Below are positions 18,261-58,300 of a stretch of 64,000 bases of DNA, one piece after another (within the stretch, counting starts at the first letter, position 1; the number at the start of each line of letters is the position of its first letter). The translations under genes were made by a program, and so were the position numbers. Under the pieces are notes generated by a model. That model made no database searches. It had not been told where the DNA came from and was given only the letters and a program-made list of their open reading frames with translations. The DNA lies in contig OX424564.1 of the NCBI GenBank assembly GCA_949152475.1, positions 6,448,001 through 6,512,000 of the forward strand, read 5' to 3'. The DNA comes from Terebella lapidaria. Taxonomy: Eukaryota; Annelida; Polychaeta; Terebellida; Terebellidae.

Positions 18261-18261
18261 G

Positions 18262-19916: not shown

Positions 19917-20155
19917 TAAGTATCAATCTATCACCACCAATACAGCCAAATTTGGATGATTCCAATAACAAACGTAAAATACAACATTTTGCAATAGAAA
20001 CAAAGCCCGACCAAATAATTCATCAAACGACACACTGGCGTCATCAGGCGCAGACAGTGTGTTAGATGTAGTTGTCTCTACTGTACACCTGATGGATGTA
20101 ACTATTGTATGCTAATGGAATTAGCATACACCTGCCCAACAACCTATGAAAATAG
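19917..20155. repeat. GTAAGTATCAATC repeat; empty site of the big transposon
   Basis: Starts TAAGTATCAATCTATCACC, ends near 'cctatgaaaatagtttag'. A third paralog (57,190-57,225, 'acttgattttataacagata') lacks this block, so it is itself an insertion of about 240 bp. The TAA at 19,917-19,919 is the uninterrupted target where, in A2, the 9.75-kb transposon sits. An inverse copy of the same end (attggtggtaatagattgat) follows at 20,409-20,434. Confidence 0.65.
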
Positions 20156-20159
20156 TTTA

Positions 20160-21060: not shown

Positions 21061-21068
21061 TATATAAA
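20986..21068 (+). promoter_or_regulatory. CRE + TATA promoter-like pair, plus strand
   Basis: TGACGTCA at 20,986-20,993 and TATATAAA at 21,061-21,068. The motif is repeated at 54,680/54,748, and in decayed form at 58,049/58,115 (agacgtcac ... catataaac). It is followed by a conserved 'actcgacgttcaa' and, 30 bp further on, 'cagatgagcttgaattg', which includes an ATG. No long frame follows. Confidence 0.35.
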
Positions 21069-29408: not shown

Positions 29409-29590
29409 TTTTATTACCCTCGCCCCGATAGGGGGAGAGGGTATTGCATTTGGGTCTGTCCGTCTGTCTGTCTGTACGCGCGCATACCTCGAAAACAAAT
29501 GGTTCGATCGACTTCAAACTTATGGCGATGAAGGGGATAAAAACGTCGAAATCGGATAAACATAGGGCCAAGGACCCTGTAGCTCACCGG
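29409..29590 (+). mobile_element. Fragment of the 'gggagagggtatt ... gtctgtccgtctgtc' element
   Basis: Begins ccctcgccccgatagggg, then gtctgtccgtctgtctgtct, then 'ggttcgatcgacttcaaact'. It is related to the first 180 bp of 36,405-36,600. It is inserted where A1 12,030 runs on uninterrupted. Confidence 0.6.
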
Positions 29591-30494
29591 AATTATAAGG
29601 CAACCATAATATTTCATCAAGTAGTAGTTTATTTCCACAGCATGTATATAACAAAATAATTATTTTATATATGAAAACAAGACACATTGCTGTGGGGGAC
29701 AGCACGTAGCCAAGGCTGTCTTCCCGTGCTGACCCCATGAAATAGAAAATAGTACAGTTATTACAGACATCAATGTAATGATACATTTAGCATACATTCA
29801 TACAGTATGGCATGGTATGTGCTGCCGCCGATGGGATTTAATGCGCTGACATGCCAATACCACCGCAACGCGAGAATGACACGAGCCACCTGAGCGCCAA
29901 GAGGAGAGCATGAAGCAAGTGGTAGCCGCCCAAGGCCACCACCTGCTTGACCGGGAAGCGATTTTGAATACAGTTATGGACAAATCATATATTTTTCAAA
30001 AACATTCATTGCAATATGGGTTATCGCAATTCACCACATTACTGTAACTATCAATTAACTTACGAGTAAGTGATGATTTCAATACGTTTCTGTTAGAACA
30101 TGTTCTACAGGACGATTCTAAATTGTTCCATACAAGTCCAGCATTGTAAAAAGCACAATTTCGGGAAAAATTGGTTCGAGGGATCGGTAGATGTACACAG
30201 TTTTCCTGTCGGGTTCTGCTGCTCGATTGGTGTTGCGGATAGAATTGGCGGAACGATACCGGAAGACGATCGTTCAGATAGTCAAAAACAAACAAAGCCG
30301 ATGTCAGGGTATAAAGATCACACAGTTTGATAATATTGCTTCGTTTAAATAATGGTTCTGTGTGAGATTTGTATTTAGATTTGGTGATTATTCGGATAGC
30401 TCTTTTTTGCAGTTTACAAATTTTCCCTATCGAAGCGCTTTTGCCCCATGCTAATAAGCAGTAGTTTAAATGGCTATGAATTAACGCAAAATAC
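29591..30494 (-). mobile_element. 5'-truncated LINE with RT C-terminus
   Basis: Minus-strand frame 29,996-30,494 reads MYFALIHSHLNYCLLAWGKS, then KLQKRAIRIITKSKYKSHTE and PLFKRSNIIKLCDLY. This is the C-terminal 'thumb/connection' region common to Jockey/CR1/RTE-type reverse transcriptases (LIH.HLNYC...W; LQKRAIRI; PLF...I). Catalytic motifs are missing because the copy is 5'-truncated at exactly 30,494. The 3' UTR runs left to about 29,591 and includes an AATAAA on the minus strand near 29,630. The frame has no internal stop. A1 lacks it. Confidence 0.8.
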
Positions 30495-33165: not shown

Positions 33166-36100
33166 CGAAATACCAATTGTGGGATCCACATGTTTTCACC
33201 AGATGCATATTTGAATTCATCTACATGTGCTTCCCATGTCTATTTCATTTAATTTATTTTTGTGCTCATGGAGCAATGGCAGGAGAACAACTTTCCAGTT
33301 CGATATTTTAAGACCATTTTAAGTCATATTTGTTATTGAGCCAAAAATACACAGACATAACAAATAGCTGGAAGACCAGACTACGATCACGAACCAAGGT
33401 AATTTATACAAAATTACAAGTTTTTTATAAAAAAAACACGACATGTCATTAGGATAACCGACTAATAATGTGATAAGAGAAAACACATTTGTCTAGCGCA
33501 GAACAATCCTATTTCTGGACTGTACTGATTTTAGACTGTAACAACGACCGGTTAAACCTTAAAACACACATTTGTCTAGCGCAGTTAGTTTATTTAGCGG
33601 ACCACAATATTCAGATCTGATGTTAGAAAGTTGTCATTTGACGTATTTATGGAAATCTATGTAATATCATTAGTGTTGGTGTGTTGCTATCAGTGCAATC
33701 GATTATTACTTGCCTTGGTATTATGTAATTTCGAATTATGCCTTTCAAGTAGACTCTAGCCGTGGTCATGTGGTTGCTTCGTTTATGCTGATTGGAAATT
33801 GGACAACAAACAATGTTTACATACTGATTCTGAGTGGACTAGAATTATCCATAAATATTTCATCGACCTGGACAGCATGCATCTTTGTCAAAAACATAAT
33901 ATTGCATATATTATATATAATAACATCTGCTGTTGTCTGAATCTGTCACGTAGCAACATATAAGAAGCAGAAAAAATGTTGTGAATAAAACTGTACCTGT
34001 AATATTGGAATTTCGATGATGCTTATGAGAGCGATTATTTGCTGTTGTAATCCCTCTAGAAATGTTGCGAAAACAAACATTCTCCCAATAATGGTGTGTC
34101 TTGCAAATTTCTATCCTGAAGCATCAAATCGTTTCTATGACAAAAAAGGTTTGAGCCCCTCAAATAGGAAAATATGTATCAAAATATTACCAACAACAAG
34201 TAACTATCGACCAGAGAAATTACAGGAACAACCAATTTAAACAATAAAATTGACGTTGTGGTAGTGAGTGAGCTGTGACATCAGGCATACGGCAATTTCG
34301 CAAGTTCTATGTACATATATTCGCTCAAAATGCCATAACATTTAGCAGAAGAATGGGTTCGAATCCCTTTGCGCCAGTGGCAGCAACATATAGGTGACTG
34401 TCTATGGACAGTGGTCGGAAAGTGGTTCCAGGCGAAAAAATCGTGGAAATAATTGTAAAGCGCTTCGAGAATGTTGGAAAATGTTGTAAAGCGCTATATA
34501 TGAATCTACAATTATTAAATAACCGGGAACCTATATGCTGTTCACTTTGGTGAGAAGAATTATCAGATTACTTCTGCGGAATACAAGAATTCGCCTTCAT
34601 CCCTGACACAGGGATGTGCTATTTGTGTATCTGTAAACTTCAAGCGGAATCATATTAGCATGACAGTAACAGTCTAACGATATTATTCCAGCAATATGAT
34701 ATCACTTGCCAGTGTTCTATGCTTCATATGATTGTTTCATGCTTTATTGAAGAAAAAAACTGACGGGATGTGGCAGAAAAAAGTACTTGTTTCAATGTAA
34801 AACTCTTTGAGTTGATTTCAAATCAATATGGTCCTGAGATATAAATAGATCCATATATTGCCTCTTATATGGGACAATAAATTCCGTTTCCCCAATATAT
34901 GATTATCCCAGAATAAACCATCCGAAATGTTGTTTTAAGTCCATCAAATTTGTCATAATCTTATTGACTATCTGATGGACAGTGACCACTCAGGGAACGG
35001 GAACGATATGATATTGATATGTACATGCACCATCTTCAACCCATATTGATGATGGCAGGAGATCGCATCCGTGTTGCAAACACAAAAATTGTCATGCTTT
35101 TCATGCGTGCACACCAGACTCGGGACTTGCTTTGGGATTAAAAGGATGTTTTTTTTTTCCAAATGCAATTGTTCTAGTGTTTGTTGCTCATTTAATTCAG
35201 CAGAAATCGAGAGTTATAACAAAAAAAAAATGCGAGTATTGACTTTTATTGAGTTTGGTTTGGCATTATCTTTTATTGTTGGAATGTTGAATTTTAGATA
35301 TACTTTCCGAACAGCAAAACTTGAATTCATGGATCCAGAACAACTATCTATGCATCGTAGCTTATGAATACAACAGATAACCTTGTATCTTCAGAAATAT
35401 CATGTCGTTAATGTATTGATGTTCTGCAATAATGCAAGGCCTGCAGCCAATCATTGTGGTCAGGGTGATTCATCTCTAATTCCAAGGCCAACCAGAGAAT
35501 ACAACACAAGCTTGGATTTTTGCACCTTGTGATTAAATCCAATATCGCGTGTAATTTCTCCGGCATATATCACGGCCCCATCATCCATGATACGATGATC
35601 GCAAGTCACGTATGTGCCCCTTGGCTCTTAAAATCATATACTCGAGACTTACTGTTTTGGAGTATCTGTAGTCCCACATTTGTAATATGAAGGGAGAGAG
35701 AGGAAGCAGTTTTATTTTATTGTGCCCTGATTTTCTGGCCACTCTCTCTATTATAAGAGGATAAAGACCTGATTACTTTCTCTACCATCTATTTTGCGAT
35801 TATTATCATCAGTCGAATCAATACAAATGCGCAACTAATTTACTAATAGGCAGATAGGATATAAAAAATAAGGAGATGATGGTACAATGAACATAAATCA
35901 ACTAATTAGCACCGAAAGCAAGTTGTGTCACCGAGGTTGATTAAAGTCATATTCTGTTGTTCCTTGATGGTGAGAAATCTCCCACACTTCATTGCAAAAC
36001 AAGTGGGTGGAAGTGCTCAAATTTGACTTGCATGCAAAAGTGCTGTTTCATGGTTCATCTTGATCTGGATTTATGAGATGTGAAATGTATCACGATTGTA

Positions 36101-39777: not shown

Positions 39778-41630
39778 CTGATTTTGGACTTTGGCGGCCA
39801 TTTTCTCAAAATCTGTTCAGTAACTTTTTTTCTTTTTGATACATAACACTCCTCATATGTACTCCTATGACGTGTATAAGTTTCGTTGCGCTTGAATCGC
39901 TCAAAGTGGGTCATTTTGGCCCAAACTCGGCCCAAATGGGACTTTCCCTTGTTAAATTCTCCAATGCCTTATAATGGCACACATTATGCCTAATGAATCA
40001 CTTAATATTGAGATTAGAGACTAGGAATCAATTGTGGACATATAGGAGATGATAACCTTGAATTTGACCTCTGACCTCCGTTTCAAGGTCAGAGCACAAA
40101 ATGGCTTATATCTCGCTTATTATCGACTTTACAGCTTAGGAATCAATTGTGGACATAAAGGAAATGATATATGCTGAATATATTCTGATGAACTTGAATT
40201 TGACCTTTGACCTCATTTTCAAGGTCACAGGACAATATGGCTAATATCTCGCTTGTTATCGACTTTACAGCTTAGGAATCAATTATGAACATATAGGAAA
40301 TGATATATGCTGATTATTGTCATGACCTTGAATTTGACCTCAGCCCTCATTTTCAAGGTCACAGGACAAAAGGGCTAATATCTCGCTTGTTATCGACTCT
40401 ACAGCTTAGGAATCAATTGTGAACATATAGGAAATGTTATATTCTGAATATTGTCATGACCTTGAATTTGACCATTGACGAAATTTTCAAGGTCACAGGA
40501 CAAATTTGGCTAATAGCTCGCTTCTGATCGACTTTACAGCTAGGGAATCAATTATGAACATATAGGAAATTGTATATACAGACTATTCTCATGACCTCCA
40601 ACTTGACCTTTGACCTAAATTTCAAGGGCACAGGACAAAATGACTAATTTCTCCCTTATTATCGATTTCACAGCTTAGGAATCAATTGTGAACATATAGA
40701 AAATTATATATGCTGAATTTTGCCATGGCCTTGAATTCGACCTTTGACCTCATTTTCAAAGCCATAGGACAAAATCGCTAATATCTTGCTCCTCTGTTGA
40801 CTCTATGGCTTAGGAATCAATTGTGGACATATGGAAAATGATTTACACTGATTATTTTGATGACCTTGAACTTATATTCAAGGTCAGAGCACAAAATGGC
40901 CAATATCTCGCTTATTATCGACTTTACAGCTTAAGATTCGACAGTGAACTTATAGGGAATGACACAGCTGAATATTTTGGTGACCTTGAATTTGACTTGT
41001 AACCTCATTTTCCAGGTCAGAGAACAAAATCGTTAATATCTCGCTTATTATCGACTTTACAGTTCAGGAATCAACTGCGAACAGGAAATGATATATGCTG
41101 AATATTCTCATGACATTGTACTTGACTTTCGACCTCATTTTCAAGGTGAGATCACAAATAGCTAATATCTTACTTATTATCAACTTTACAGCATAGGAAT
41201 CAATTGTTGTTAAACTACAAATGATATATGCTGAATATTCTCGTGACCTCCACTTGACAATTGACCTTACTTTCAGGTTTCTTTTGACCTGATTTTCAAG
41301 CTGACAGGATAATGGCTAATATCTCACTTATTGACTTCATAGTGTGGAAATCATTGAAGGACATATGGGAAATGCTATACGCCAAATATTTTTATGACCT
41401 TGAATTTGACCTTTGCCTTCATTTTCAAGGCCACAGGACAAATTGCTTATATCTCTCTGTTTATTGAATTTACAGCTTAGCAATCAACTGTGGACATGAT
41501 AATATGCTTAATATTATATATGCTGAATATTCTCTTGACCTTGAATTTAACCAGTGACCTGGATAACATCTAAAATATGAAACATATATTGTCCGGTAAC
41601 CTATCTTTGGCCCTTGGCCTATTTTTTTTA
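39778..41630 (+). repeat. Inserted array of ~115-155-bp units rich in TGACCTTGA
   Basis: About twelve units marked by 'aggaatcaattgtgaacata' near 40,024, 40,139, 40,275, 40,411, 40,547, 40,679, 40,811, 41,055 and 41,193. The left end resembles 9,910-10,030; the right end TTGTCCGGTAACCTATCTT (41,588-41,606) equals the right end of the 9,729-11,190 element, so it belongs to the same superfamily but lacks the left hairpin. Non-coding. Confidence 0.75.
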
Positions 41631-41639
41631 TTGTGAATC

Positions 41640-43866
41640 AGGTTTGGTTCATATTCAGTTTCATATCTCATCTCGCGAGAATGGTTGCTAACTGAAATCT
41701 TCTCAAATTGTCTTAAACGTTTCAGGCACTGATGTATATTCGGCGAATAGCCTGACAGATGCTTAAGTCAATATGCTATCTATGGATACGCTAAACCTCC
41801 TTATTATCATAGTCTTACATATACCTTACTCAAGCCACGTAGATGTTTAATGACTGGACTAGATTTTTCGTGAACCAGAAGTGCATTCGGTAGCCAACTG
41901 TAGGGTGTAATAACATTGTATTTCAGAGTACTGTCAGCGAGACCGAAGTAATTTTATTGACTTGTTTGTGTCAACTAGTCAGTCAATGTAATTAGGACAA
42001 TGGAGTTCTCGTGTTCCAAATACTCGTAATACAGTTCAGCCACCCCACGCTATTTTCCATGGTTTGTGTTCGAAATTGATCCATCAAGAAGATGGAATGA
42101 ATAGCGTTTGACACACAGTACGAATGTGTATATTGTTATCTTGGATTGAACGATGAACCATGTTCCTAACATTTCATCGGTCAGCACAAACAAAGGTGAA
42201 TGCAATCCAGCAAACCTGATTTAGGGATAATTCAGAGTCGAAATATGTGGGAAGAACACCAGGAATTTCTATCCTAATAATAACACTTTTGAAGCATATA
42301 CCGAGTACGCTGTGTTCGATTCACACCAGATTTTCTGTGTGGTATTCTGGGTCATGGTGTTATTGGTCACCATCGAAAATGATATTTGTTTTCATAACCC
42401 AAACAGTATGTACCATCAACTTCATACTGAGGTAAAATGATAGTGAGTGTTTTGAAAAATTTTGAAAATTTCTGTTGAATGCAGTATCTCGTTTATTACA
42501 TTGATTGATTTGTTATTTCAATGGAATCAGTGAAACTGAAACTATAACGTGCTGCTTAGAATGTGATCAGGGAATGGAAACAGTCAAATGTCCGGACAAA
42601 ACTCTATTGATAATTCTCTCAAAGGAAAATGTATTTAAAGCAAAATTGTTAGCGAATACAAAAGCAAATTCGCTGCAGCGCGTAACATGAAATCCAATTC
42701 TTTTGGATTTACCCCCATGGTGTGCTCGCCAAAACTACATTCCCGTGTTATGTGGTTCACATTTTAAACCGCTGGCCTGAATAAATATAGCGTATATGGT
42801 CTTTGTTTTATGGGAGCAAATATCAAATTTGGGGATTACTCGCGTTATCGCTTCTGTGTGTCATCCCTGCTCACACACACAAACGACCACAACCAGGGGA
42901 TTATTGGTCTAGGCTTATATATAATGCAACCTTATTACAGCTTCGTGATATTCATATAATTACAATGTTGTTATGCAACTACTGCCGTGACGTCATAATA
43001 ATATGGTTTAAGAGGATTCTGCCCACACCTCCTTCACCTAGAACACACTACTCTTTGTATCATTGATACTGTTTTTCTAAGACACCATGTGTTTGTCCTT
43101 CGATGGTGTCGTCCACGGTTTGTAAGACTTCGCGAGCCAATTAACACCAAGTCAGAGGCTTAGGACGTGATGTCTGCTATGCGACTGACAGTCTCCTATT
43201 TGGTGATTCAAACCGTGAATGCGGGTGGCAGCCTTTCTTCTCCGTGAATAATAGTTCCCCTAAATGCGAAACCGTCAATGACCAGCCTGCTCTTCAGTAA
43301 ACAGTGAAAAGCATTATCCAATTGAGCGAGATTTGTAATGATCGAATGTATTCGTTGATTCACATTACCACGAACAGTGTCAAGCAGACTTGCCCGAATC
43401 CCATAACTATCACCTCATTCGAACATAATCCTAATCAGAGAACAAATAATTTTAATACTCAAGGATAACTAATGTTTCCGATTCCAGATGTAACGATGAG
43501 TGGAATTAAGCTTGTTGATTGCAACGCCTGGTTCAATACATTTTAATGTTATCCTCGTGTACACAGTGAAACATAGTATCATAAAGTACAATTTATCGCG
43601 GAGTGTGAGACCAGAGAGACCATGATTTGACGTTATGATTTGCCGAGTAGATATCTCAGCGACCTTTTATAGAACTAGCTGATTCTATGATGACTAATAA
43701 CTCACAGTCCGCAAACTACTAACATGCAAATCACGCCCAAATCACATTCAGGTCACATCCAAAATGGCGAAAGCAACACAAAGGATCACGAACAAGGGAT
43801 TGTGGGTGTGTGATTACTTGAAATCACTTGTCTGGATGAAAGAATATTATAAGGTCTTGATTGTAA
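41640..43866. other. Duplicated module, A2 copy of 17,690-19,919
   Basis: Very similar to A1. Holds 60-bp core copy 5 (41,947), the 'RIEIPG' segment with a stop (42,205-42,345) and the CRE/TATA pair at 42,915-42,995. Ends at TAA 43,864-43,866, the left target duplication of the transposon. Confidence 0.6.
42915..42995 (-). promoter_or_regulatory. CRE + TATA promoter-like pair (A2)
   Basis: TTATATATAA 42,915-42,924 and TGACGTCA 42,988-42,995, same spacing as A1. Confidence 0.35.
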
Positions 43867-43960
43867 GGCCATGCCAAATAATAAAGTTGGTCGTTGGAAT
43901 CGCCGCCCCTAAAATTCAGATAGGCAAATAATAGTAAAAAAAATCGCCGCCCCTATTTTA
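43867..43960 (+). repeat. Left terminal inverted repeat and subterminal repeats
   Basis: TIR at 43,867-43,898, followed by the word AATCGCCGCCCCTA twice (43,898 and about 43,947), a subterminal direct repeat that could bind transposase. Confidence 0.7.
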
Positions 43961-44112
43961 CATCGCCGGAAAATAACGACTTAAATTTTTTTCAACCTAA
44001 CGGAGTTTTTATTCAGTGCGCGTTTCTAGATGTACTGATCGATTGGTAACTGAATGTCAAGGACGTCTGATCAGCCATGTGAAAAGTTGAAAGGAAAAAC
44101 GAAAAAGTCGTA

Positions 44113-44371
44113 ATGAGTTCTCTAAAGACTGTAGATCCACCGCTTGTGTATGTTATCGCTCGAATTGAGGGTAAACAAACTGTGTATTATCTGCCTGGGA
44201 ACACAACGTTCCAGGAATTGTATTGCAAAGCCACCGATGTGACTGGGCCTGGGGCAGTCGGCGATGCCAGTGCCACTGCCAGGTCTAACGAGGTTAGCGC
44301 CCGTCTACATGCCTTGGGCAAATTCGACCCAGACTCTGGGGTAATACACCAGTTTACAGTTTGCCAAATAA
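44113..44371 (+). CDS. Possible first coding exon of the transposon gene
   Basis: An ATG 246 bp inside the left TIR opens 87 codons: MSSLKTVDPPLVYVIARIEG, then KQTVYYLPGNTTFQELYC, ending FDPDSGVIHQFTVCQI just before AG|GTAAAG, a good splice donor. Its composition is more GC-rich than the flanks, like the exons at 49-52 kb. Phase does not fit directly onto the exon at 49,151, so further exons would be needed. No domain recognised. It could be a chance frame. Confidence 0.4.
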
Positions 44372-45290
44372 GGTAAAGTTCGGGTAAACAAACCACACGT
44401 GCATCAGCACGACAGCAGCAGTTTTATCTGTCAGAGTAAACCAGTGTGAATACTGTACACGAATAAAAACTCATATATTTACAAGCCCACCCCTTGAACA
44501 CCCTAGATTTCTTCCTGAAGAAAGAAAACATTTCTATAAATTTATTGAACCGAATGACAAGTTGACAGCTGCAGGACCATCCGAGGCTATGATGTCTGAT
44601 GGCTGCCATTTCAATTCTCGCTACCTCGGGGGAGAATGAGCAATGCATTACACCGAAATAACGATGCAGTTTAGCAACTGTGATGCTAAATAAAATATTT
44701 TGTGCCGCACATAAACGTCGAGATTCTAAACTTTAATACAAGTCATTGATTTGGTGAATTGATTGGTATTATTGAGAGACTATTTGTATCTTCATAATCT
44801 GTAGGCCTATCAGTCTGGTAATTAAAGTGATATTGGAGTAAAGTTATGAGTTTTTTCATACATTTCTGATCGAACGGAAAAAGCATGATAGTTATATATC
44901 TGCACTTGTATGCCCAAACAGACTCCCCTTTCTAATTGATTTCGTTGGAGTTTCTGGTGGAGATATTTTGATTTTGTTTACAGTAACATCATTCTCCGTG
45001 CTTTGTATCTCTTGATGCAATGCGATTGCAGCTTACTCGTATATGTCTGAGCTAATCGAGCTTGAAATGGGTCAAGTCAGAGCTAACGGCGCACAAAAGA
45101 AAAGAAAAGCCGCTGCTTGTATTGTCATATGCTTCAACATCATCGTTTATCCATCTGATCAAGCGTAATTTGATTTGTAACCCATTTTTCTGAGACCACA
45201 GGCATATATGTAATTGATTTGAAAAAATAGTTTTCCTGCCAATATCACTTGTCGACTTTTAAATGTCAAAAATATCTGAACAATTCGAGA
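44372..45290. other. Transposon interior with diverged copy of the 8.4-kb segment
   Basis: 44,855-45,255 aligns with 8,345-8,715 (catttctgatcgaacggaaa; gtttctggtggagatatttt; actcgtatatgtctgagcta). The minus-strand peptide VNKIKISPPETPTKSIRKGS matches VNKFKRSPSGTVTSVKKGHL of the 27.0-kb copy. It is possibly captured host sequence. Confidence 0.55.
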
Positions 45291-45299
45291 TGTGCTAAA

Positions 45300-46015
45300 T
45301 ATGCTCCAGTACTACTGGGGGCATAGGGAGACAGGCTACATATTGTGTGTGGCGATTTTGCCCAAAGATCGCGGCAGGTGATTCTTTCTAAATACGCTTG
45401 TTTCTGGCCTTGTTTTGGACGCTTCTGTTCGGAGCATGTGCGCTGCTTGGCAATGCCCTCTAACTCTCTCGCTCAGTATGCTGTAGAAATGGTCTTACGT
45501 CACTTCTCTCGTTGTTCAGTGGAGTTGTCTCAGAGCTGAACAAGGCTAGAGAACGACGGAGGGCTCAGCCATGAGCCCTACGTCCTCACTCGGCTAAGGC
45601 CCGCGAGGGCCCTGGGGACAATATCCATAGGGGGCTCAGGTGGGAAAGACCTTGATGACTCGGGGGTGTACGCCCTCAGGATCACCGGCCTCCCACCTAG
45701 GATGGTGCAACACAGGCTCTGGCGGACCGTCGGGCTGTCCGGGGTTCCAATCCCCCGTGGCAAACCGCGGCAAGCCGGCCTTGCAGTTAACACCACGGTG
45801 ATGATCGTGTATCTGTGGGGTCCGCATGACTGGGCTCGCAGGGCGGGCTGCTCCTGGTTAACGTTCCGTAGTAAATACTGCACATGCAGTGACCCTCGGT
45901 GAGCGGACTATCTGCGAGGATCTGAGGATAGCGGGTGCGCGTTCACCGTGACCCACGGTGAGCGGCTTATCCACGAGGATCCGGGATAGCGGACGACGTC
46001 AAACTTTACATGTGT
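45300..46015. other. GC-rich block inside the transposon
   Basis: Markedly more GC-rich than the window. Ends with two ~60-bp tandem units (gtgaccctcggtgagcggac / gtgacccacggtgagcggct, about 45,890 and 45,949). Frames on both strands look coding-like by composition only; none shows a domain. It is probably a decayed nested element. Confidence 0.4.
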
Positions 46016-47165
46016 ATGAACTAACACTATTTTTCAAATGAAAAAGCAATCCGTGCTTCGTGGCAAATAGTTCATTTTTCAAAGACGTGTCGTAACTGAC
46101 AGTCTGCAATTGAATTTGTCAACATTCTCAATAGGCCTATGGTACCTGTCACCCAGCGATGGGGTGGCTATTTTCGTCTACAGCTCTGTAGGGACATTTA
46201 GTGCATTAGACAATGGCGACACGAAAAACTGCATACACTGATTGCATACATGATGTATACATGATCATATCCATCTTGGTGATAAAGTATATGACACCAA
46301 TGTGAGAATGTAACTTCAATAAAGAAAAAGCGCATCATGGTGAAACCAAAAGGCCTAGCAACGTAATTCTGTCCACATCACCACATATTTCAAATATTAT
46401 TCCCCAATATCATGTGATCTATACTTGGTATTCTGAATTCATCAACCACAATACAACATATTAAAGGGCCCATATTCAACTAGACGTCAAGGCCTGACGA
46501 TGCCTTGGGGCATTTCGTGTGAGAACTATTCCTAGCTAACATATACCTAAGAGACCGTGTCTAGAACCATGATGACTCTGAAACTGTCCGTGGTCAAAGT
46601 TTAAGTGACATACCCCGCCCTTAGGCATCTTTGCGTTTCGCTCTACGACGCACCGTTTCCGAGATACAGCCAAACAGGAAGTGCCGAGTCGGCAGAAAAA
46701 AATTCGACACCAGGGGGTCGTTTCAACCCAAGATACCCTCTAGACTAGTTTGTCTAGTGCCAGGAGGCCGAAATTGAGCTCCGTTTCGCTCTACGACGCA
46801 CCATTTCCGAGATATGCATGAAAGCCTCAAGGATGAATCAGCAAAAATTCTTCCGAGCTCTAGGTCAGAGGTTGTTCGACGGATTGATCCCAAAATCAAT
46901 AGGGTTCTTCCCTGGTGGTATATGAACTCCCATGCATAGAATACTTGCCATTGCATGAATGTAAGTATCAATCTATTACCACCTATACAATCAGATTTTG
47001 ATGATGCCAATAAGAAACGTAAAATACAACATTTTGCAACAGAAACAAAGCCCGACCAAATAGTTTATCCAAAGACACACTGTCCTTTTTTGAGTTATCG
47101 ATCGGAAACCAAGTCTCAAAATTATGGTTATATCCCGCCAATGATGCCTCTGACATTGAGTCATC
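46016..47165. other. Transposon interior, non-coding, with small repeats
   Basis: Contains a duplicated word gtttcgctctacgacgcacc (46,635 and 46,786) and, at 46,959-47,082, a partial copy of the GTAAGTATCAATC family that breaks off after 'aaagacacactg'. No gene. Confidence 0.5.
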
Positions 47166-47169
47166 TAGA

Positions 47170-48460
47170 TTCAGGCGGAATCTTTATCTGACACTATGGT
47201 CCATGGTGCCTGTGATGCCCCGGATCGTGGGCCGGACCTGGGTGGCCTCGCTGGACCAGCGCACTCAGGCTGCAACTTCGGGGAAGAGCCAGTCTTCTGG
47301 AACGGCTCCAGAGACAGTGCAGCCCCCTTGCTCACAAGGCGTGTCCTCTGCTGTGGCCCGTCCTTCTCGACTGACTGTGACACTGCCTCCACTAGTGTCA
47401 GCAATGCACATGGCAACTCAAAAGCCATCGCATCTGCGAGCACAGCATCCAGTGCCAGACCCAAGGTCCTTGCTGCTGCTCCGTTCGCTGAAGTTGCTCC
47501 TATATAACTGCCACCTCTTACCAGGTTGGCGTTTGTCTCCTCGCTGTTCTCAGAAAGTGGGTCCGTGGGGTGGCAAAGTACAGCCACGCTGGACCTGGAG
47601 CCTCTGAATCCAGTTGAGGAGATGCTCAGGCAGTATGGCTCGGACACTGCTTGGATCTACGAGACTTTCAGCAAGTCCTTAGGTCAGGAGGTGGACCATC
47701 GACGAGATGGCCAGGAGCGGGTACCACTTGGTGCAGGGCTGGCCAACCTGCCGGTCCCCCGGGCCCTTCAGGACCTAAGGGTGTCAGGAATTGGAGCTCT
47801 GACGTGCGTGAGAGGGGAGTACCCCTCAGGTCACCCCCTGGCACAGCTTGGAGAGCTACTAGACTGTTGCCTATGAGCAGCAGGCGTATCATGAAGGAAT
47901 GGCTGCTGCTAGAGAGGCAGCAGAGTCACGGCTGACTCCCATCCCTGACGATGTGCAGGAGGAACTGCAGCGGTTTTGTGCTGGGAATGAGGATCTCAGG
48001 CATTGTCTTTGCAATGCTTAGCTAGCTCAGGCTCAAGGGCAAGAGGGTGTTGATGACTCCGGTCTTTTACCCTCAACCAGATCGTTCCGGACTGATTTGA
48101 CGCACCCCTAGAGGTTGTGCTCTACCCTATCTTGGTCCGGAAATGGGGCAAGCGTGTCAGGGAACACCGCATGGTCGATAGAGTGATGATGATCTCTGTG
48201 ATTGCGCCGCTGAATGCTGGAAGTCTCCCCTCAATCCAGGAAGCCCACCTCTGAGGCTATGTCTTCCTCCCTTGTTGAGAGAGCCGGAGTCCCCGGGAAG
48301 AAGGACCACCAGCCGATAAAGGAAGGCTAGTGAGGCTGACTGGTCACGCTCCGTAGGGCCGCAGTGATATTGCCGAGTCGCTTCTTGCAGCTCCACCCTG
48401 CACGGATATTCTCGGATCTGCTGGCGCCAGTTGGCAAGGGCAACCGGCAACACTTTTTAG
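47170..48460 (+). pseudogene. GC-rich coding remnant inside the transposon
   Basis: Overlapping open frames in all three plus frames (47,196-47,507; 47,203-47,607; 47,526-47,876; 47,651-47,935) suggest one ancestral reading frame broken by indels. Pieces include MLRQYGSDTAWIYETFSKSL and DDVQEELQRFCAGNEDLRHC, acidic/hydrophobic patterns as in a retroelement structural protein. I cannot name the family. GC-rich unlike its surroundings, hence probably a nested insertion. Confidence 0.35.
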
Positions 48461-49150
48461 AAGTACCTCATTTTCCATTACTGGTTTTTCATTTTACAAC
48501 ATTTCTAAAATTAAAAGGTTAATTGAATTCCAAGCACTCGGCACACCTTCCCTTTCAGTGGGTGACCTTCACAGGTCATCATCCATTCGGGAATTCCTGG
48601 CTCAAAATTTTAGCTTGCTTATAATGGGCTCAGTCAAATTTCTGGAGCATTACAGTGTAGTCCATAAGTTTTGGGGTTAGTCCCTATTCTTCCAAAACAG
48701 ACCCTTAAGGTCTGATCGTTTTGCATCGCGACTTTGGATTCCGCTCACCTTGCTTCTTCCTGGTTACTATGATGATGTATTTCTGAATTGTGTATTGGTC
48801 CGGATCCCGTCTGGCGGACTATCGTACCTGGTTTTAGCTATGTAACTTTTCTAGAAATAGCCCACGTGTTAAATGGCCACTCCATTTGGTGCAATTGGAA
48901 TATCTATTTGGAAATGAATATGAAACAACAAAAAGAATTCGCGTCGGTTTTGTGTTACTTCGTCTCGTTATTCGGTCCCTCGGTTTTGAAATACTAAAAT
49001 GGCCTCAATCGGACACCATACTATGACAGTCCCGAGCACGTAGTACTACACTGTTTACATGATACTAGCCTCATGAATATTGGAACCGTAAACTGGTGTA
49101 TACTGTCCTCTCTCACGTTGCCCCTATCGTTGCCCTATCGCTGTGTGCAG
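48461..49150 (+). other. Probable intron upstream of the transposase exon
   Basis: AT-rich, no coding signal; ends in a pyrimidine-rich tract (tgtcctctctcacgttgccc...) and tgtgtgcag, a good 3' splice site at 49,150. Confidence 0.45.
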
Positions 49151-51657
49151 ACCTCAATCTTCGTTTTATTGATTTTACACGGTCACAGTCTCCAGATCTT
49201 GAACCCCAGGCTTCGACGTCTGCTGCTAGATCTGCATCTGCCACAACACCCACAGTTTATGATGTACTGATGAAATCAGGGAATAAAAGAGTATTGCCTG
49301 ACAAAATAGAAACAACTAAAACCCAGTCCTTGAATTCACAGCAACAAATGTACAATGATGTTGTGGACTGGATGTCCGTACATGACTGTTCGTGGACAAA
49401 AAATACACTTCACAGTGGGACATTAACGGTCCGGTATTTGGTCAACGCATTGTGGTATATTGAGCATGCCCACGAGCAACTTTCCAAACAAGGTTGCCAC
49501 ATCCCACATTGCTTCGCAAAATTTCAAAATTACAGGGATTATTCAAAGTTGCACAGGGCTCGCCCTGCCTTTTCATGGGAAAAACTGAATGAAATTTGCC
49601 TGAACCTGACGAAAGCGCTGTCTTATCCTTCAACGAGAGAAAATGTGATGTTGTCAAAGGGAATTGAACAACTACTGGCCGCACTGTCTAAATATGCTGA
49701 ACATTTGCAGAAAGACCGTGACTTGCATCAGAAAAAACGTGCAAAAGTCTCACCACCCAGAATGCCACACTATGAAACAAGTTTGACATTCATTGACGCA
49801 ATTCCCAAAGCCGATCAAAGCATTCCAGAGCTCTCGATACCCATTTGTCCAACATCAAACCGTATGCTTTCGTAGACTTGGACGAATTTTCACCACCTGA
49901 TCGTCTCAAGAGACGAAAGTATGTAAGTCAACTGAGAGTGAGCGAATCCATCATGCTGTATAGAGTGGTGTATGGTGGATCTCTGGGTACAATCAACTTT
50001 GTCTGGAAGATAGTCAAAACGGACCCGGAGGCACAGAAAATAGTGGAAAATGCTGCAGTGATTGAGGAGTTGACGAAAAGCCTCCCAAAGTACAGCTCAA
50101 GAGCAGCCAGACGAGATTTCATCGAGAGCTATGCTAAGGTGGTGAAGTGCCCGAAATCTGTGCTGAGGCATATGTACTCAGAATTGACTGGAACTGTTTG
50201 CACTGCAGAAACAGCGATGCAGCAAGAAGTGGACGATCGAGATTTACGTGAAGAAAAAACAAGTACTGGAGACACCAAGTTTGACGTGTTCTTCGATGAA
50301 GTTGAAAAATATCTCGGTGATCAACTTGCAGTGCAAGAACGACGACATGGAGAGGAACAGTATATACCATTCGCAATGTCAACAGAGGACCTGAGAGCAC
50401 AGGTAATGCAGAGAGTTCCACAAGGTACACCAGTACCAAGTACTGAGACTTTGCGTCTCCAGTTTCACCCAGGGAATCCTTACAGGAAAACGGCAGAGAG
50501 ATACAGTGGTCGCTTTGATGTGAAGTTTCGCGTTCAAACACGGATGTCGAGAATGCACCACATTGACATGAGATACGTTGCCACGCAGTTCAAATACCTT
50601 AAAGAGTTTGCTGTTGTCTTCAAAAATCAATCAACAATGGTGTTCATGGATGATAGGGCAGTAGTGCCAATAGGGGAACCAGGTCTCCCAATATCCACTG
50701 GTGTCCGAGGACATAATAAAGTATTGGCACAAGTAGACAAGCCCTTAACAGCGCTGGATCATGACTTTCATACGGCTGGCATCATCCCATCTGTTGCTAT
50801 GGTGGCGAAAATACCAAATAACAAATCAGACAGTTTCTTTGATGGCCAGGTAGTTGTAACTTTGAAAGACAAAGTGTTTCAGCCGTCTTCGCCATTTCGG
50901 CATGCAGCAGAGCTGTCACGATTACTTCGTGACGGGTACTCAGATGATGATGTATCACTCTCAAAACCAGTGCTGTTACTTTTCATAGACGGGGGCCCTG
51001 ATCACAGGATCACTTTCGACACTGTCAAAGTATCGTTATTGGAAATCTTCATGCAACTGGACCTTGATATGCTCATTGCCATGCGAACAGCCCCAAATAA
51101 CACTTGGGTTAATCCTGCTGAAAGATGCATGTCAATCCTAAATCTGGGATTGCAGCATGTCGCTCTGAGCAGAACCAAAATGACAGATGAACTGGAAGCA
51201 GGAGTAAAGAACGAGTCAAGTCTGACAGCGCTTCGCAAGTATGCTGAATGGAAGGAAGGTGTCGCTCAAGCTTACGCGGCCAGCATGGAAGGGGTGATTC
51301 AGCTGCTAGCTGACAGATTTGCACGACTATCCCTTAAAGGTGTCCCCTTCAAAACATACACTGGTTTGACCACGGAGGAAGTGGCAGAGCAGCTGGATAT
51401 TGTCAAGCAAGTTACTGACTCTGACAACAGAATCATCATCGAAGGCTGTTCGAGGGCACAAGGAATTGATGGAATTCATGAAAACCCACAGTCGCAGTGC
51501 TAACTACTGCTATCAACTCAAGAAGTGTTCACGTGATGAGTGTGGTTACTGCACTATCAACCCCGTAAGAATGGACCAGGAGACGTTCAGCAGACTGGCC
51601 TTCCTACCAGAACCAGAACCCGAAGGAGGAGACGACCACTACAAAGAGTTCTCTCAG
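49151..51657 (+). pseudogene. Transposase-like protein, main exon (DDE-like)
   Basis: From the acceptor at 49,150 one frame runs to 49,875: LNLRFIDFTRSQSPDLEP, a Ser/Thr-rich linker, then VRYLVNALWYIEHAHEQLSK. The second frame (from 49,797 to 51,503) continues with YAFVDLDEFSPPDRLKRRK and a catalytic-type triad: MVFMDDRAVVPIGEPG, LLLFIDGGPDHRIT, NTWVNPAERCMSILN. If the codon at 49,845 is residue 1, the acidic residues are D269/270, D382 and E426. A third frame gives CYQLKKCSRDECGYC up to CAG|GTGAGT at 51,657. The two frame changes (-1 near 49,800-49,860, +1 near 51,440-51,500) are opposite one-base shifts: decay or assembly indels. Similar uncharacterised multi-copy proteins occur in sponges, cnidarians and molluscs, as I recall. 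Confidence 0.7.
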
Positions 51658-51777
51658 GTGAGTCGTGACGTGCTGATTTACATGTATTATCTCATATATC
51701 ATGTATATATTCTATATTCCCGTTGCAATGATACCATCACTGAATCCTGATCTGGAATATAATTTTCTGATTCCCAG

Positions 51778-51978
51778 CTGTATGGCAAGGAACTGCCTGA
51801 ACGACCCGATCGTTATATGCCTTCGGCCAAGATTCATGGGATAGATCCGGAAGCACAAGACTCTGACAAATCCTGCAGGGATGTTTCGAAGTCTGGCAAA
51901 GTCAGGGCCAGTATCGACTGTTCGCAATGCCTCAATCCCAGATGTGTGTATTCCATGCAAAAGCTGACAAAGATACAG
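51778..51978 (+). CDS. Transposase-like gene, exon with Cys motif
   Basis: Bounded by ttctgattcccag| and CAG|GTTTGT, 67 codons, phase 0 on both sides: LYGKELPERPDRYMPSAKIH, ending RASIDCSQCLNPRCVYS. The CxxC...C set suggests zinc binding. The intron before it is 120 bp (51,658-51,777). Confidence 0.65.
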
Positions 51979-52207
51979 GTTTGTGTATAGAAGTTTATGT
52001 TTGGCATATCATTATATTGTTTATTCATAGTTGGGGCATTTTAAAGAATAATGTTGTCACGTTTTCACAACACAATTGTTTTCAGAAAGCAACCACTGCA
52101 TTTGGCTTCTATATCAATTTGTATATGTACAAATCTGATATTCCAACTCCATACATGTGGTGTTTTGTGATATATAAAGAATTTTATTTGTCACTGTCAC
52201 CCCCCAG

Positions 52208-52537
52208 GAAGACTACCTGGAATCCGTGCGAGACGATGTCTGGTATACCTGCGGTGATGGTCTGTCGGATGTCAACTTGGTCGTGCGCCGAGCCATAGAC
52301 TGCACAAGCCCAGTCGAAACCACGTACTATTCATGTTCCATATACTTACCATCTGTATGTATTCATTGTGGGGATCCAGAAGACTTGTTGGATGACTATC
52401 ATGATTATATGGTTGAAATGCATCAATTGTACTCAACGGTTCGTCCATTGTGCACATCGTGCTACAGCACTGGCAAGCAGGCTGTGACATGGGGGAAGAA
52501 ATTCTTCCATAAGAAACAGAAATTAGATAAGAAGTAG
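52208..52537 (+). CDS. Transposase-like gene, last exon (zinc-ribbon tail)
   Basis: Starts after gtcaccccccag| in phase 0 and ends at TAG 52,535-52,537. EDYLESVRDDVWYTCGDGLS is followed by YYSCSIYLPSVCIHCG and STVRPLCTSCYSTGK: three Cys pairs that look like zinc ribbons. It ends in a lysine-rich tail. A 229-bp intron precedes it. Confidence 0.65.
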   Translation, partial: EDYLESVRDDVWYTCGDGLSDVNLVVRRAIDCTSPVETTYYSCSIYLPSVCIHCGDPEDLLDDYHDYMVEMHQLYSTVRPLCTSCYSTGKQAVTWGKKFFHKKQKLDKK

Positions 52538-53400
52538 AGGTGAAAATTGGGTTCATTTGTGAAGCCTATTGTAGAGTCTTATTCATGTTGTAACTTGTTA
52601 GAGTTCGTAATTTCAGAGTGTTGGATATTTTATGACCCAAGTGGTCATCTGCGAATATACTGTTCAAAATGACATTTTGTTTGTCAGTTGCAAGTTTCGT
52701 TTTAATGCTGATATGATATACTTTGAGATGCAAACCTATTTTTAGTCATGTTTTTTTTTGTGGAATATATTCCTGTGTGCATGTTGCGATACAGTATTTT
52801 AACTGGACATTTGATGCGATAAGTGATTGATGACCTTGAACTTGACCTGCATTAGAGGACCTTGAGTGATCAATCTAGGGGTTCTGTAGATTTTGAAGTA
52901 GAAAATTTGCCTGTATTTTGGTCACAAAAATCATATGGTGGAAACTTTCTGTGAACATTACCATAATCTTTGTTCTTAACTTGGAGATAACAACTATTAT
53001 TGCCTACCTGGCACTTGAGCATGTGTAATATTACAACTATTTTATTCAACAATGCATTTGTACTGGTCAAAATATAACCTACATGTATGTGCTTTGTTCA
53101 GAAAACAAGTACTTTGAAATAGGACAGAAACACTATACCAGCTTTTGTTGTGCAATATACACTTTTATTTATGTTCCGCCATGATGGTGTTTCCTTTTTA
53201 CAATGCACTTGATACATGTTGAACATCATTACATGAATTGCATGTATTTTGAACATATGATTTTCAATAAATTACGATTACTTTTACGGAAATTATTTGG
53301 AATAGTCTTCTATACCTATATAAAACGGAAACATAAGGACAATATAGGTATTTTATGTCCATAAAAAAGTTGTACCCGATTTGGTTTCTGATATTATTTA
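52538..53400 (+). other. 3' UTR and right flank of the transposon gene
   Basis: AT-rich and non-coding. AATAAA at about 53,265 is a possible poly(A) signal. One TGACCTTGAACTTGACCT cluster at 52,830. Nothing else seen. Confidence 0.5.
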
Positions 53401-53414
53401 TAACAACATAATAA

Positions 53415-53618
53415 AAAAAAAACGTATGAGTTTTGGCATGATCGAATCCAAAGACAGAAAATTTACTTCTAAAAAAAAAAAAAAAATTCCCCGTATGAGT
53501 TTTGGGGTGAAGAAATCCAAAGACGAGAGATTTACTTTAAAAAAAAAAAAATATCGTACGCTCGTATGCTTTTTTTTGGACGAAAATCCATAGACCAATT
53601 TTATAATTTGGTGTGGCC
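53415..53618. repeat. Right subterminal repeats and terminal inverted repeat
   Basis: A unit of about 70 bp (cgtatgagttttgg ... aatccaaagac ... atttactt + A-run) occurs at 53,423 and 53,493, with a third degenerate copy in inverse-like form before the TIR (53,587-53,618). Confidence 0.7.
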
Positions 53619-55345
53619 TAAGTATCAATCTATTATCACCAAAACAGCCAAATTTTGATGATACCAATAACAAACGTAAAATACAACATTTTGCAATAGA
53701 AACAAAGCCCGACCAAATAATTCATCAAACGACACACTGGCGTCATCAGGGGCAGACAGTGTGTTAGATGTAGTTGTTTCTACTGTACACCTGATGGAAT
53801 TAGCATACAACTGCCCAACAACCTATGAAAATAATTTAGAAGCAGATATCAAAAGGTGGTTACATGGTTATCTCTGGTGTCCGATGTGCCTGAATAATTG
53901 ACCGCAATCAAAATGTACCGGCTGCTTCATTAATAAAAGATTAATTACAGGCCATTAATTGTCTCCGAGTGAAGCCCTACCGATTCAGGGATTAACATGA
54001 AACGAACCTGGTGATAAAATTTAATGAAATCCATTGCAAACTGATGAGAAGCTTTGTGACATCATATTGTAATAATGTATTGGTGGTAATAGATCGATAC
54101 TTACATTCATACCACTCAGTTGGTGTCACTGCTGGCAGACGTTAAATCTGTCCCCGAGGATACCATCAAATCAGCAGCCTTCTGGCTTGTGATTAAGTAC
54201 TTATGTACTTGAGACTCGTGAGGTAAAACTCATATCTTCTGAATGCGTTCCTGTCCCCGACATCATTAGTGATCAATCAAATATGAGATACGTATAATGG
54301 CAACGCCCAGGACTTGATAGTGATGTATTGACACGTTACATGACATCCACGGAAATGATAAATTACATGTAAAGGTAGTTGATTTATCTTGACACTCTTG
54401 GGCAATTGATATCGCTCAGTGAATTATGATTACCCGTGATATATACAAATAAACATGCAAACAACCTTTTGGGTCTCAAAAAATGATCTGCTGTTCTTTC
54501 ATTCCATAGATGATGCCTGTAGACAGTGAATTTCTCTCTTTCTCCAACACGTTTCCCAAATGTTGATGCACTCCTCAATTGCAGGTGCGTTGTTTGTCTA
54601 CTTCAAATCAGGGCGTCTGCATGATTCTGTTCCTAATATACCCAATGTACCATAGACCAATTGTCTCACACGCTGTGTATGACGTCACATCATACCTTAA
54701 GTACTCGTCACGTGTGTATTACCACCAATACCACACAATTTTGATGATATATAAAACTCGACGTTCAATTAGTTCCACAGATGAGCTTGAATTGTTTATA
54801 TTTTCTTTTGAAAATTATACATATCTATCACCAGTATTTAGTTTGTGAAGTGACTCCATAGTGTATGTGAATACATAACTAATTCCCTGAGCACAGCCAA
54901 GGTAAATCGCCATAAAACTCGACGTTCAATTAGTTCCACAGATCTTGAATTGTTTCATATTATCTTGTCCCATTATTGTCCCAATCAGGGACAGGGCGCA
55001 TAAATGCTACAACAAGGCACAAGTCACACAAGAAATGCTTCATTGATATTCATTTGAATATTGATTGGTTTGTATGTCAATATGCTTAAGTCAATAAACT
55101 TGGTTTGTATGTCAACATGCCTAAGTCAATATACTATCTATGGATATGCTAAACCTCCTTGTTAGCATAGTCGTGCATATACCTTATTCAAGCCACGTAG
55201 AAGTTTAATGACTGGACTAGATGTTTCGTGAACCAGGCGTGCATTCAGTAGCGTACTGTAGAGTGTAAAAACATTGTATTTGAAAGTACTGTCAGCAAAA
55301 CCAAAGTAATTATATTGACTTGTTTATGTCAACTAGTCAGTCAAT
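53619..55345. repeat. Segmental duplication, copy A2 (right part)
   Basis: Resumes exactly at the right TAA and is collinear with 19,917-21,508. Includes the GTAAGTATCAATC repeat (to about 53,850), its inverse end (54,083-54,109), a plus-strand CRE/TATA pair (54,680/54,748), a local duplication of 'aaaactcgacgttcaattag' (54,753 and 54,914) and 60-bp core copy 6 (55,305). Confidence 0.8.
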
Positions 55346-56690
55346 GTAATTAAGACAATGGAGTTTTCGTGTTCCAAATACTCGTAATACAGTTCAGCCA
55401 CCCCACGCTATTTTTCCATGGTTTGGGTTCAGAATTGATCCTTCAAGAAGATAAAATGAATAGCGTTTGACACCCAGTACGTATGTGTATATTGTTATCT
55501 TGGATTGAATAATAAAACATGTTCTTGACAATACATCCGTCAGCTCAAACTAAGGTGTATGCAAAAACAATCAAAGATTATTTGGGGATAATTCAGAGTC
55601 GAAATATGTGGGAAGCACACCAGGAATATCTGTCCATATACATAACACTTTTGAAGCATATACCGGGTACGCTGTGTTCGATTCACACCATATTCTTTGA
55701 TGTATCCTGGGTCATGGTGGTATTGGTCACGATCGGATATGATATATGTTTTCATAATTGATAGCGAATATAACAGAAAATTCGCTGCAGTGCGTGACAT
55801 GTAATCCAATTCATTTGGATTCACCGCATGGTGTGCTCGCCAAAACTATATTGCCGTGTTATGTGGTACATATTTTAAACCACTGGCCGGAATAAATATA
55901 GCGTAATATGGTATTTGTTTTATGGGAGCAAATATCAAATGTGGCTATTACTCGCGTTATCGCTTCTGTGTGGCATCCCTGCTCAGACAAACAAACGACC
56001 ACAATCATGGGATTATTAGTCCAGCTTTATATATAATGCACCCTCATTACAGCTTTGTGGTATTTATATTATTACAATGTTTTTATGCAACTACTGACGT
56101 GACGTCATAATAATATGGTTTGAGAGAATTCTGCCCACACTTCCTTCACCCAGAACACACTAATCTTTGTAGCGCTGATACTTTTTTCTAAGACACCATG
56201 TGTTTGTCCTTCGATGGTCTACTGTAAATAACACTTCGCGAGCCAATTAACACCAAGGCTTAGGGTAAAGACGTGATGTCTGCTATGCGACTAACAGTCT
56301 CCTATTTGGTGATTCAAACCTTGACTGCGGGTGGTAGCCTTTCTTCTCAGGTGAATAATAGTTCCCCTAAATGCGAAACGGTCAACGACCAGCCTTCTCT
56401 TGAGTAAACATTGAAAAGCATTATCCATTCAAACCAGATTGGAAATGATCGAATGTATTCGTTGATTCACATTATAACAAACCGTGTCGAGCAGACGTGT
56501 CCGAATTCCCTAATTGGACAACATGAACTATTACCTCATTCGAACATAATCCTAATCAGTGAACGAATAATTTTAATTTTCTATGATAACTAATGTTTCC
56601 GATTCCAGGTGTAACGATGAGTTTTAACCATGTGGAATTAAGCTTGTTGAGTGCAACGCCTGGTTTACTACATTGATTCATGGAGTCAGT
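55346..56690 (-). repeat. Third copy of the 18.0-19.6-kb module
   Basis: Matches 18,030-19,640 and 42,000-43,560 with more divergence. Contains the 'RIEIPG' segment (shifted frame; IKEYGVNRTQRTRYMLQKCY) and a CRE/TATA pair (56,027-56,107). No gene intact. Confidence 0.7.
56027..56107 (-). promoter_or_regulatory. CRE + TATA promoter-like pair (third copy)
   Basis: TTATATATAA 56,027-56,036 and TGACGTCA 56,100-56,107, preceded by an extra TGACGT. Confidence 0.35.
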
Positions 56691-58300
56691 GAAACATGAC
56701 CTGCAACTCGTTGATACTAGTCGCGGAGTGAGACCAGAGAGATTGGGACATGATTTGGCACGAAACTATCTTGATAATTTTCTAAATGACGGATGTTTTT
56801 CTTTGCAAAACTGATAGCAATTCTAGTAGTAAGTTCTGACTGTATTGGTGGTAATAGATTGATACTTACATTAGTTGCGACAGGTGACATGATATTCAGT
56901 CTATTTAGATTCATTTAGGTTGTATTTCCGTTGTATGTAGTGGTGTGTGCACACTCACTTGTTACGTAAAATGTGCTGGTGTCTGCCATGAAAAAAAAAT
57001 TATGACACAACGCGAGTGCGCCCATCCCTTATTCAACGTTACAGAGGGAATTTAGCTAGGCAAGGTTGGACAAATTATATCGGGAATCGCGTACAATGTA
57101 CCGTAACTTTCATGTTCCTTTGGGAAAAACATATATATGTAGGTTCGTGGTACATACTCGAAATCACTTGTCCGGATGAGAGGAGATTATATGGACTTGA
57201 TTTTATAACAGATATCAAATAGTGGTATTATGTGCGTTATCGCCAGTATGCATAATGCCTTCCGAAATGGTCACATTCAAAATGTACCGACTGCTTCATT
57301 AAAAAAAGATTATTTACATGCCATTAATTGTCTCTGAGGGGAGCGCTACTTGTTCGGGGATTAACATGAAACGAATCTGGTGATAAAATTCAATGAAATC
57401 TATTGCATACTGATGACCCACTTTGTGACATAATATTATAAAAGTGTGCACCAAATATGATATGACGTCATGACGCACAGTAGGAATACAGTTTATTTGC
57501 AAATGGCTGGCAATCTCAAAAGATTCTCAATATTAAATTCATGAATTACCAGCACACTGAAGCATTCTATCCACATACAACCCGTAAGGTAAAACTTATG
57601 TCTTCTGAATGCGTTCCTGTCCTCGACATCAAGGGTGATCAATCGGATATGAGTCGTGATTGATAGTTGTTTATTGACACATTACATGACATGTACAGAT
57701 ATGATAAATTACATGTAAACGCTATTGATTTATCTTGACGCTCTTGGGCAATTGATGTCGCTCATTGCTTTATTGATACCCCATGATATATACAAATAAA
57801 CATGCAACAACCTTTCGGGTCTCAAAAATTGTCGGGTTTTCTTTCATTCCATAAATGATGCCTGTGAAACAGGAAATTTCAACCTCTTTTTGCTGACAAG
57901 AGAAATGAAAACGTCTTCATTCTAACACGTCCCAAGGTTTGCAACTGCAGGGGCTTTGTTTTTCTACTCCAAATCAAAGCGGTTGCATGAGTATTTTGCC
58001 ACTATATACATTGTACCATAGACAAATCATATTTCACACGCTGTGTAAGACGTCACATCGTAACTTATTTACTCATCACGTGCGTGTTACCACCAATACC
58101 ACAAAATCTTGATGACATATAAACCTCGACGTTCAACTGGGTTCACAGATGAGCTTGAATTGTTTCATATTATTTTTCTAATTATACGAATCCATCACCA
58201 GTATTTATTTCTTGAAGTAATTCCATGATGTGTATTCGAATACATGAAATAGTATCACAAATATCTCGTGGAAACGTGATGCTGTGGTCCACACTATGAG
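56691..58300. other. Unassigned DNA then diverged copy of 20.1-21.1 kb
   Basis: 56,691-57,160 shows an inverse end of the GTAAGTATCAATC family (56,838-56,870) and nothing else. 57,165-58,200 is a diverged paralog of 19,875-19,916 plus 20,155-21,120, without the 240-bp repeat. Confidence 0.5.

Follow-up and report, generated by a model that had tools for sequence, protein, structure and literature searches.

A transposon family of the annelid Terebella lapidaria whose transposase appears distantly related to those of bacterial ISAzo13 elements

The ISAzo13 family comprises insertion sequences of bacteria and archaea, and its DDE domain is represented by the Pfam family PF07592. Zator is said, in work of Bao et al. 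from 2009, to have been derived from "transposase 36" (PF07592). A passage of PMC5718144 presents Zator as the eukaryotic counterpart of ISAzo13, a section of PMC10045372 pairs the two and gives 3-bp target site duplications (TSDs) for both, and parts of PMC7386202 and PMC8533490 place Zator near IS630-Tc1-mariner. Here we describe a DNA transposon in a 64,000-nucleotide stretch of the Terebella lapidaria genome (contig OX424564.1, positions 6,448,001 to 6,512,000; this whole stretch is called the window below). The transposon probably represents an approximately 5-kb eukaryotic cut-and-paste family of ISAzo13-type descent, like or alongside Zator.

The element spans positions 43867-53618 of the window, including its terminal inverted repeats (TIRs), and is delimited by the following features.

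43867..43898, + strand: left TIR, GGCCATGCCAAAT..., matching the right end at 26 of 32 positions; the same end is found in sibling copies
53587..53618, - strand: right TIR, GGCCACACCAAAT... read inward; the same end is found at four sibling right ends and in the C14 copy
43864..43866, no strand: left TSD, TAA, read from the window letters and matched by the empty TAA in the paralogous segment
53619..53621, no strand: right TSD, TAA, read from the window letters
19917..19919, no strand: empty-site TAA in the paralogous segment, a single uninterrupted TAA where the element stands in the other copy

The TIRs of the window element, GGCCATGCCAAATAATAAAG.. and GGCCACACCAAATTATAAAA.., agree at 26 of 32 positions, and the runner-up among 20,000 right-arm placements tested had 19 matches. 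The insertion site lies in a colinear duplication, in which the left flank (17687-19920 versus 41623-43867) is 90.5% identical and the right flank (19917-21116 versus 53619-54802) is 91.7% identical. Taken together, the empty TAA in this duplicate, the TIRs, and the flanking TAA triplets mean that the insertion is real and its borders exact, and the locus is thus a genuine DNA transposon with exact ends. A previous reading made from the letters alone (the sequence-only reading) had reported TIRs starting with GGCCA, TAA on both sides, and exact boundaries from the empty TAA at 19917-19919; the ends were reproduced, and the boundaries are borne out by the colinear flanks. The window copy is 98.2 to 98.7% identical to its siblings, close copies elsewhere in the genome, over the 2.1 to 2.7 kb compared, whereas the flanks are ~91% identical to the empty paralogue; the duplication is thus the older event, as is also required by the empty site.

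The sequence-only reading had also taken the whole span for a complete 9.75-kb transposon. This part of it fails, because the span is composite.

43867..44344, + strand: left part of the transposon, N-terminal coding segment with ATG at 44113, 98.5 to 99.6% identical to five siblings
44345..49100, no strand: nested insertion of ~4.75 kb that interrupts the transposase gene, absent at the same point in five of five siblings (L092-L095 and L097)
49101..53618, + strand: right part of the transposon, with the remaining transposase gene and the 3' region, 93.7 to 97.5% identical to siblings in aligned blocks longer than 160 bp

The coordinates of the nested insertion were taken from the letters of the window and from the sibling alignments. 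In the siblings C7, C8, C16, C12, and C14, position 44344 is joined straight to 49101 (..GGGGTAATACT(G/C)TCC..), the reading frame is open across this junction in L092-L094, and in L093 and L094 most of the gene lies within one stop-to-stop frame of 984 codons. The segment 44345-49100 is a later nested insertion, and its absence from all five siblings examined puts the transposon proper at ~5.0 kb. Four siblings are 5,014 to 5,021 bp long, as calculated from alignment coordinates; the C14 sibling, at ~6.6 kb, carries an insertion of its own of ~1.6 kb, and one 100-bp block of its right part is 81% identical to the window element. The nested insertion has inverted ends (TACACCAGTTTAC.../...GTAAACTGGTGTA) flanked by GGTAA and TACTG, and comparison with the empty sites of the siblings shows either no duplication or a duplicated TA plus a further TA. 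Two open reading frames (ORFs) tested inside it had no Pfam match. It could be argued that the 9.75-kb span is a single intact element with a 4.75-kb intron, since it is bounded by a single TIR pair and a single TSD, but all five siblings lack the 4.75-kb piece, at exactly the same position in each, and the piece has inverted ends of its own and splits a frame that is open in L092-L094, making such an element extremely unlikely; an intron of ~4.8 kb within an intact element was considered and then discarded. With the segment read as a nested insertion, the transposase gene of the window copy is interrupted and in addition changes frame, so a working transposase is unlikely to be made from it, and we consider it likely that this locus belongs, as a dead copy, to a transposon family of ~5 kb. 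The assignment of the N-terminal segment rests on the sibling frame, which runs on continuously from it; a hidden Markov model of the N-termini of relatives (12 sequences) gave no match at E<=10 to 44083-44376. Rfam searched over 43500-54000 gave no match at the gathering threshold. A dispersed repeat of ~125 bp, starting near GTAAGTATCAATC, is present at 46955-47082, 19911-20037, 53619-53739, and 3335-3448; one copy adjoins the insertion site on the right and another lies inside the nested insertion, and the repeat recurs in the fetched genome loci L106, L112, L115, L116, L130, and L134.

A protein search of the T. lapidaria genome (761.6 Mb, 438 contigs) gave at least 63 matches, and ends were followed at nine places, picked as the best preserved copies or as two-copy lineages. 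Sibling ends came from alignment; the right end of C14, the ends of the C1 copy near 93.27 Mb, and those of the third lineage came from GGCC-like or GG..CC seeds, and triplets played no part in the end searches. Three protein lineages are covered: the siblings (91 to 99% identity), a second lineage (58 to 69%), and a third (~41%). The left and right triplets are as follows.

Window copy: TAA/TAA
C7 sibling: TAA/TAA
C8 sibling: TTA/TTA
C16 sibling: TCA/TCA
C12 sibling: TAA/TAA
C14 sibling: TAA/TAA
Second lineage, C1 near 93.27 Mb: TTA/TTA
Third lineage, C5 near 34.07 Mb: TTA/TTA
Third lineage, C1 copy near 12.58 Mb: TTA/TTA

All nine copies with both ends found carry GGCCA ends, flanked by 3-bp duplications that match perfectly (four TAA, four TTA, and one TCA). 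The sequence-only reading had proposed checking whether all copies share their ends and a TAA duplication; in this check the ends and a 3-bp TSD were shared by all nine. The third-lineage border was found twice independently, by an inverted-repeat search and as the abrupt end of the alignment of two genomic copies at TTA|GGCC. At two further copies one end was found: the C17 copy has a left TAA and no right end within the 3.4 kb fetched, and a second copy on C1 near 12.58 Mb has a right TAA, its other side being broken by a neighboring copy. At this C1 site (L103/L139/L111/L140), one third-lineage copy lies inside another of the same lineage in the opposite orientation. No convincing end was seen in the 1.5-kb flanks of L098, L101-L104, L107, L110, and L119, a flank length too short to be informative.

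The coding features of the right part are as follows.

49797..51503, + strand: main transposase reading frame of 568 codons with the DDE catalytic domain, RNase H-like in the model
50649..50654, + strand: codons for D285/D286 in MDDRAVVPIGEPG, one of this pair being the putative first catalytic Asp (conservation, model, and ISAzo13 alignment)
50988..50990, + strand: codon for D398 in IDGGPDH, putative second catalytic Asp, invariant and, in the model, immediately following a strand
51120..51122, + strand: codon for E442 in NPAER, putative catalytic Glu, invariant, in a helix in the model and 43 residues after D398
51421..52537, + strand: Cys-rich C-terminal coding segments, found by tblastn with full-length relatives (23 to 50% identity)

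The product is a DDE transposase. D286 is invariant in 41 sequences and D285 is present in at least 90% of them; in the model the pair sits where a strand ends, and it aligns with the DxK motif of ISAzo13 transposases. The protein with MDD, IDGGPDH, and NPAER motifs and a Cys-rich tail that had been noticed in the sequence-only reading is thus present. The several exons proposed for it are partly upheld, in that two gaps with GT..AG borders in the 3' part, near 51658-51777 and 51979-52207, look like introns, but most of the gene is a single frame of 984 codons in L093 and L094. Across the family the protein, of ~1,000 residues or more, begins with a ubiquitin/PB1-like segment, predicted from the model of a relative, followed by a helical linker, the DD(43)E core, and the Cys-rich C-terminus, which is probably zinc binding; roles for the N- and C-terminal domains are putative. 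The catalytic core is predicted to adopt an RNase H-like fold, and with the model of this region Mos1 mariner was the top Foldseek match (E, 4e-4) and had the highest Z score (9.6; root-mean-square deviation, 3.3; 172 residues aligned), nearly tied with retroviral integrases; with a full-length relative, Mos1 occupied ranks 1 to 7 of the structural matches. A Mos1-like fold is by itself no proof of Tc1/mariner membership, and such membership was rejected: all nine copies have 3-bp TAA, TTA, or TCA duplications instead of TA, the catalytic spacing is DD43E, and the protein is much larger.

The Pfam and NCBIfam libraries contain no model that recognizes the family protein. Among 41 family members nothing in Pfam was better than E 0.015, and PF07592 was the only DDE transposase family among the best 25 of the 33 Pfam families listed at E<=10; in an earlier scan of 22 members, which listed 17 families, it was likewise the only one. 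ISAzo13-type transposases were chosen for comparison for this reason, and the set was drawn from plasmid loci and from genomes (best 80 kept). Eight plasmid loci were fetched; L008 was excluded for its broken frame, leaving an alignment of seven sequences, four annotated as ISAzo13 and three unannotated relatives. When the profile of our family was compared with this seven-sequence profile using hhalign, the match had a probability of 82.8, an E value of 9e-6, and a score of 56.4, with the DxK..G..DHDF, DGG, and N..E motifs and the catalytic residues colinear and an aligned-core identity of ~14%. Control scores were at most 23.8 in 20 column shuffles and 17.9 and 20.4 with reversed profiles. 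Single ISAzo13-type sequences scored 20.2 to 35.4 (seven of seven), versus 12.8 to 17.3 for six other transposases (IS1, IS30, IS5, IS21, an rve protein, and an IS630-type fragment), and the second (sister) lineage alone and the third lineage alone scored 39.6 and 32.5, respectively, against the ISAzo13 profile. Of 153 relatives scanned, 125 have both motifs, and the spacing from the second catalytic D to E is 43 in 123 of these; of 82 ISAzo13 sequences scanned, 79 have both motifs, all with a spacing of 42. On this evidence the transposase is a distant but specific relative of the bacterial ISAzo13-type enzymes. Against this relationship stand the PF07592 model itself, which reached at best E 0.14, below the cutoff, in one of the 41 members; a narrower profile built from 82 ISAzo13 sequences, most of them close, which scored 41 with an E value of only 0.001 and a probability of 21; two of the seven single ISAzo13-type sequences, which scored under the best shuffle; and the TIRs, which resemble ISAzo13 ends only weakly beyond GG. 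PF07592 gave no match in the T. lapidaria genome, though no control responded either.

The ends and target sites of ISAzo13 elements can be set beside those of the family. Four bacterial copy pairs gave two clean borders, TTA|GGAGACACGC.. and TAA|GGAATCCCGCC..; pair L031/L033 has a different triplet at each end (TTA and TAA), and pair L025/L051 was unclear. Among 78 ISAzo13 loci with room for the search, some of them copies in the same genome and hence not independent, inverted ends were clear in 56, and 32 had matching triplets within reach; the triplet is TAA or TTA in 26 of the 32, and 24 of these 26 start with GG. ISAzo13 elements and the family thus share colinear DDE core motifs, nearly equal D-E spacing, and, in many ISAzo13 loci, GG ends and a 3-bp TAA/TTA duplication. 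They differ in that the bacterial elements measured are mostly ~1.3 kb, compared with ~5 kb and intron-like gaps here, and in that the family protein, of ~1,000 residues, has N- and C-terminal additions.

This relationship explains why the ends look like those of PIF/Harbinger elements, for which the sequence-only reading had considered GG..CC termini and TWA (W, A or T) duplications typical. That resemblance is real, with GG ends and TAA or TTA in eight of the nine copies (TCA in the other), but the same trait is found in ISAzo13, and such ends alone therefore do not identify Harbinger. Membership in PIF/Harbinger is scarcely credible on other grounds as well: no Harbinger DDE domain was among the best 25 of the 33 Pfam families, the IS5 profile score of 15.7 equals background, and the second, Myb-like gene of those elements was not seen. 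No Myb/SANT domain was found by Pfam in eight window ORFs; a lone Myb-model match at E 0.06 in one of the 41 members was taken as chance; and in L092-L095, scanned on the strand of the transposase gene up to the last 0.6 to 0.7 kb, no further frame exceeds 143 codons. On these two points, a protein unlike Harbinger transposases and the lack of a Myb-like partner, the sequence-only reading agrees with our results.

Academ elements deserve mention in the same context, since passages of PMC10045372 give AcademX 3- to 4-bp duplications, a length that fits, and part of PMC10294476 describes Academ as abundant in bivalves, the source of many of the named homologues among the matches listed in our searches. 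However, neither the XPG nuclease domain of AcademX nor the helicase domain of AcademH was found in the eight window ORFs or among the best 25 of the 33 Pfam families, and an Academ origin would leave the ISAzo13 link unexplained; we judge it very improbable, if less so than a Harbinger one.

With ISAzo13-type descent preferred, its place relative to Zator can be considered. The family resembles Zator, by published description in sections of PMC10045372 and PMC5718144, in its 3-bp duplications and ISAzo13-related transposase, and is unlike it in that the PF07592 model fails to recognize it. We call the family related to, and do not file it as a member of, ISAzo13/Zator because it scores below the PF07592 cutoff and the comparison with Zator is by published description. 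It is possible that the family is a distinct lineage next to Zator; that it is a eukaryotic superfamily in its own right, descended from ISAzo13 in parallel with Zator and with several anciently split lineages in one genome, is a tentative proposal that we hold at somewhat less than even chances. The sequence-only reading proposed an undescribed or poorly described superfamily. Understood as a eukaryotic superfamily of its own, with no special tie to ISAzo13/Zator among the DDE groups, this proposal draws on the silence of Pfam and NCBIfam, on homologues named merely "uncharacterized," "hypothetical," or "unnamed" (among the at least 120 matches listed per search), and on the large N- and C-terminal additions. 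It is improbable as stated, since the family matches ISAzo13 better than it does the six other transposases or the shuffles, the D-E spacing is nearly equal, the TWA target and GG ends are common to both, and a pairing of ISAzo13 with Zator has been published, in the passages cited above.

Cut-and-paste transposition with a 3-bp stagger is suggested by the conserved triad together with the TSDs and the empty site. One large DDE transposase would presumably bind the GGCCA.. inverted ends, cut the element out, and insert it at T(A/T)A-like triplets, the stagger giving rise to TAA or TTA duplications. We infer that this system descends from an ISAzo13-type ancestor, either as Zator does or in parallel with it.

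The family is found in molluscs, an echinoderm, a hemichordate, and a priapulid, and the ISAzo13 link gives this widespread animal transposase family a superfamily neighborhood. Since Pfam and NCBIfam do not see it and its homologues lack informative names, annotation pipelines built on these resources could count its members as host genes. No paper naming such a family was among the matches listed in searches of the open-license PMC literature, a scope outside which Repbase and subscription papers lie. The best match in a PDB sequence search, a CRISPR ring nuclease at E 0.063, was judged to be chance. Viral contigs yielded 18 stretches that fit a pattern, but no relative is encoded in any of them, and a 61-residue eukaryotic peptide found nothing in viral contigs; a tblastn search of plasmids with the family core gave one match, to a Fic family protein at E 2. 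Two homologues (P0084 and P0136) are labeled Candidatus Thioglobus and Sedimenticola and probably represent bivalve host contamination of symbiont bins.

The window as a whole is composed of several old tandem or segmental duplications of ~70 to 98% identity, pairing 17687-21116 with 41623-58176 and 5522-13768 with 25030-34646. Candidates for a GIY-YIG (Penelope-like) segment and reverse transcriptase fragments, recognized by eye only, lie in the ORFs at 21721-22287 (+ strand), 29999-30520 (- strand), and 4039-5538 (- strand).

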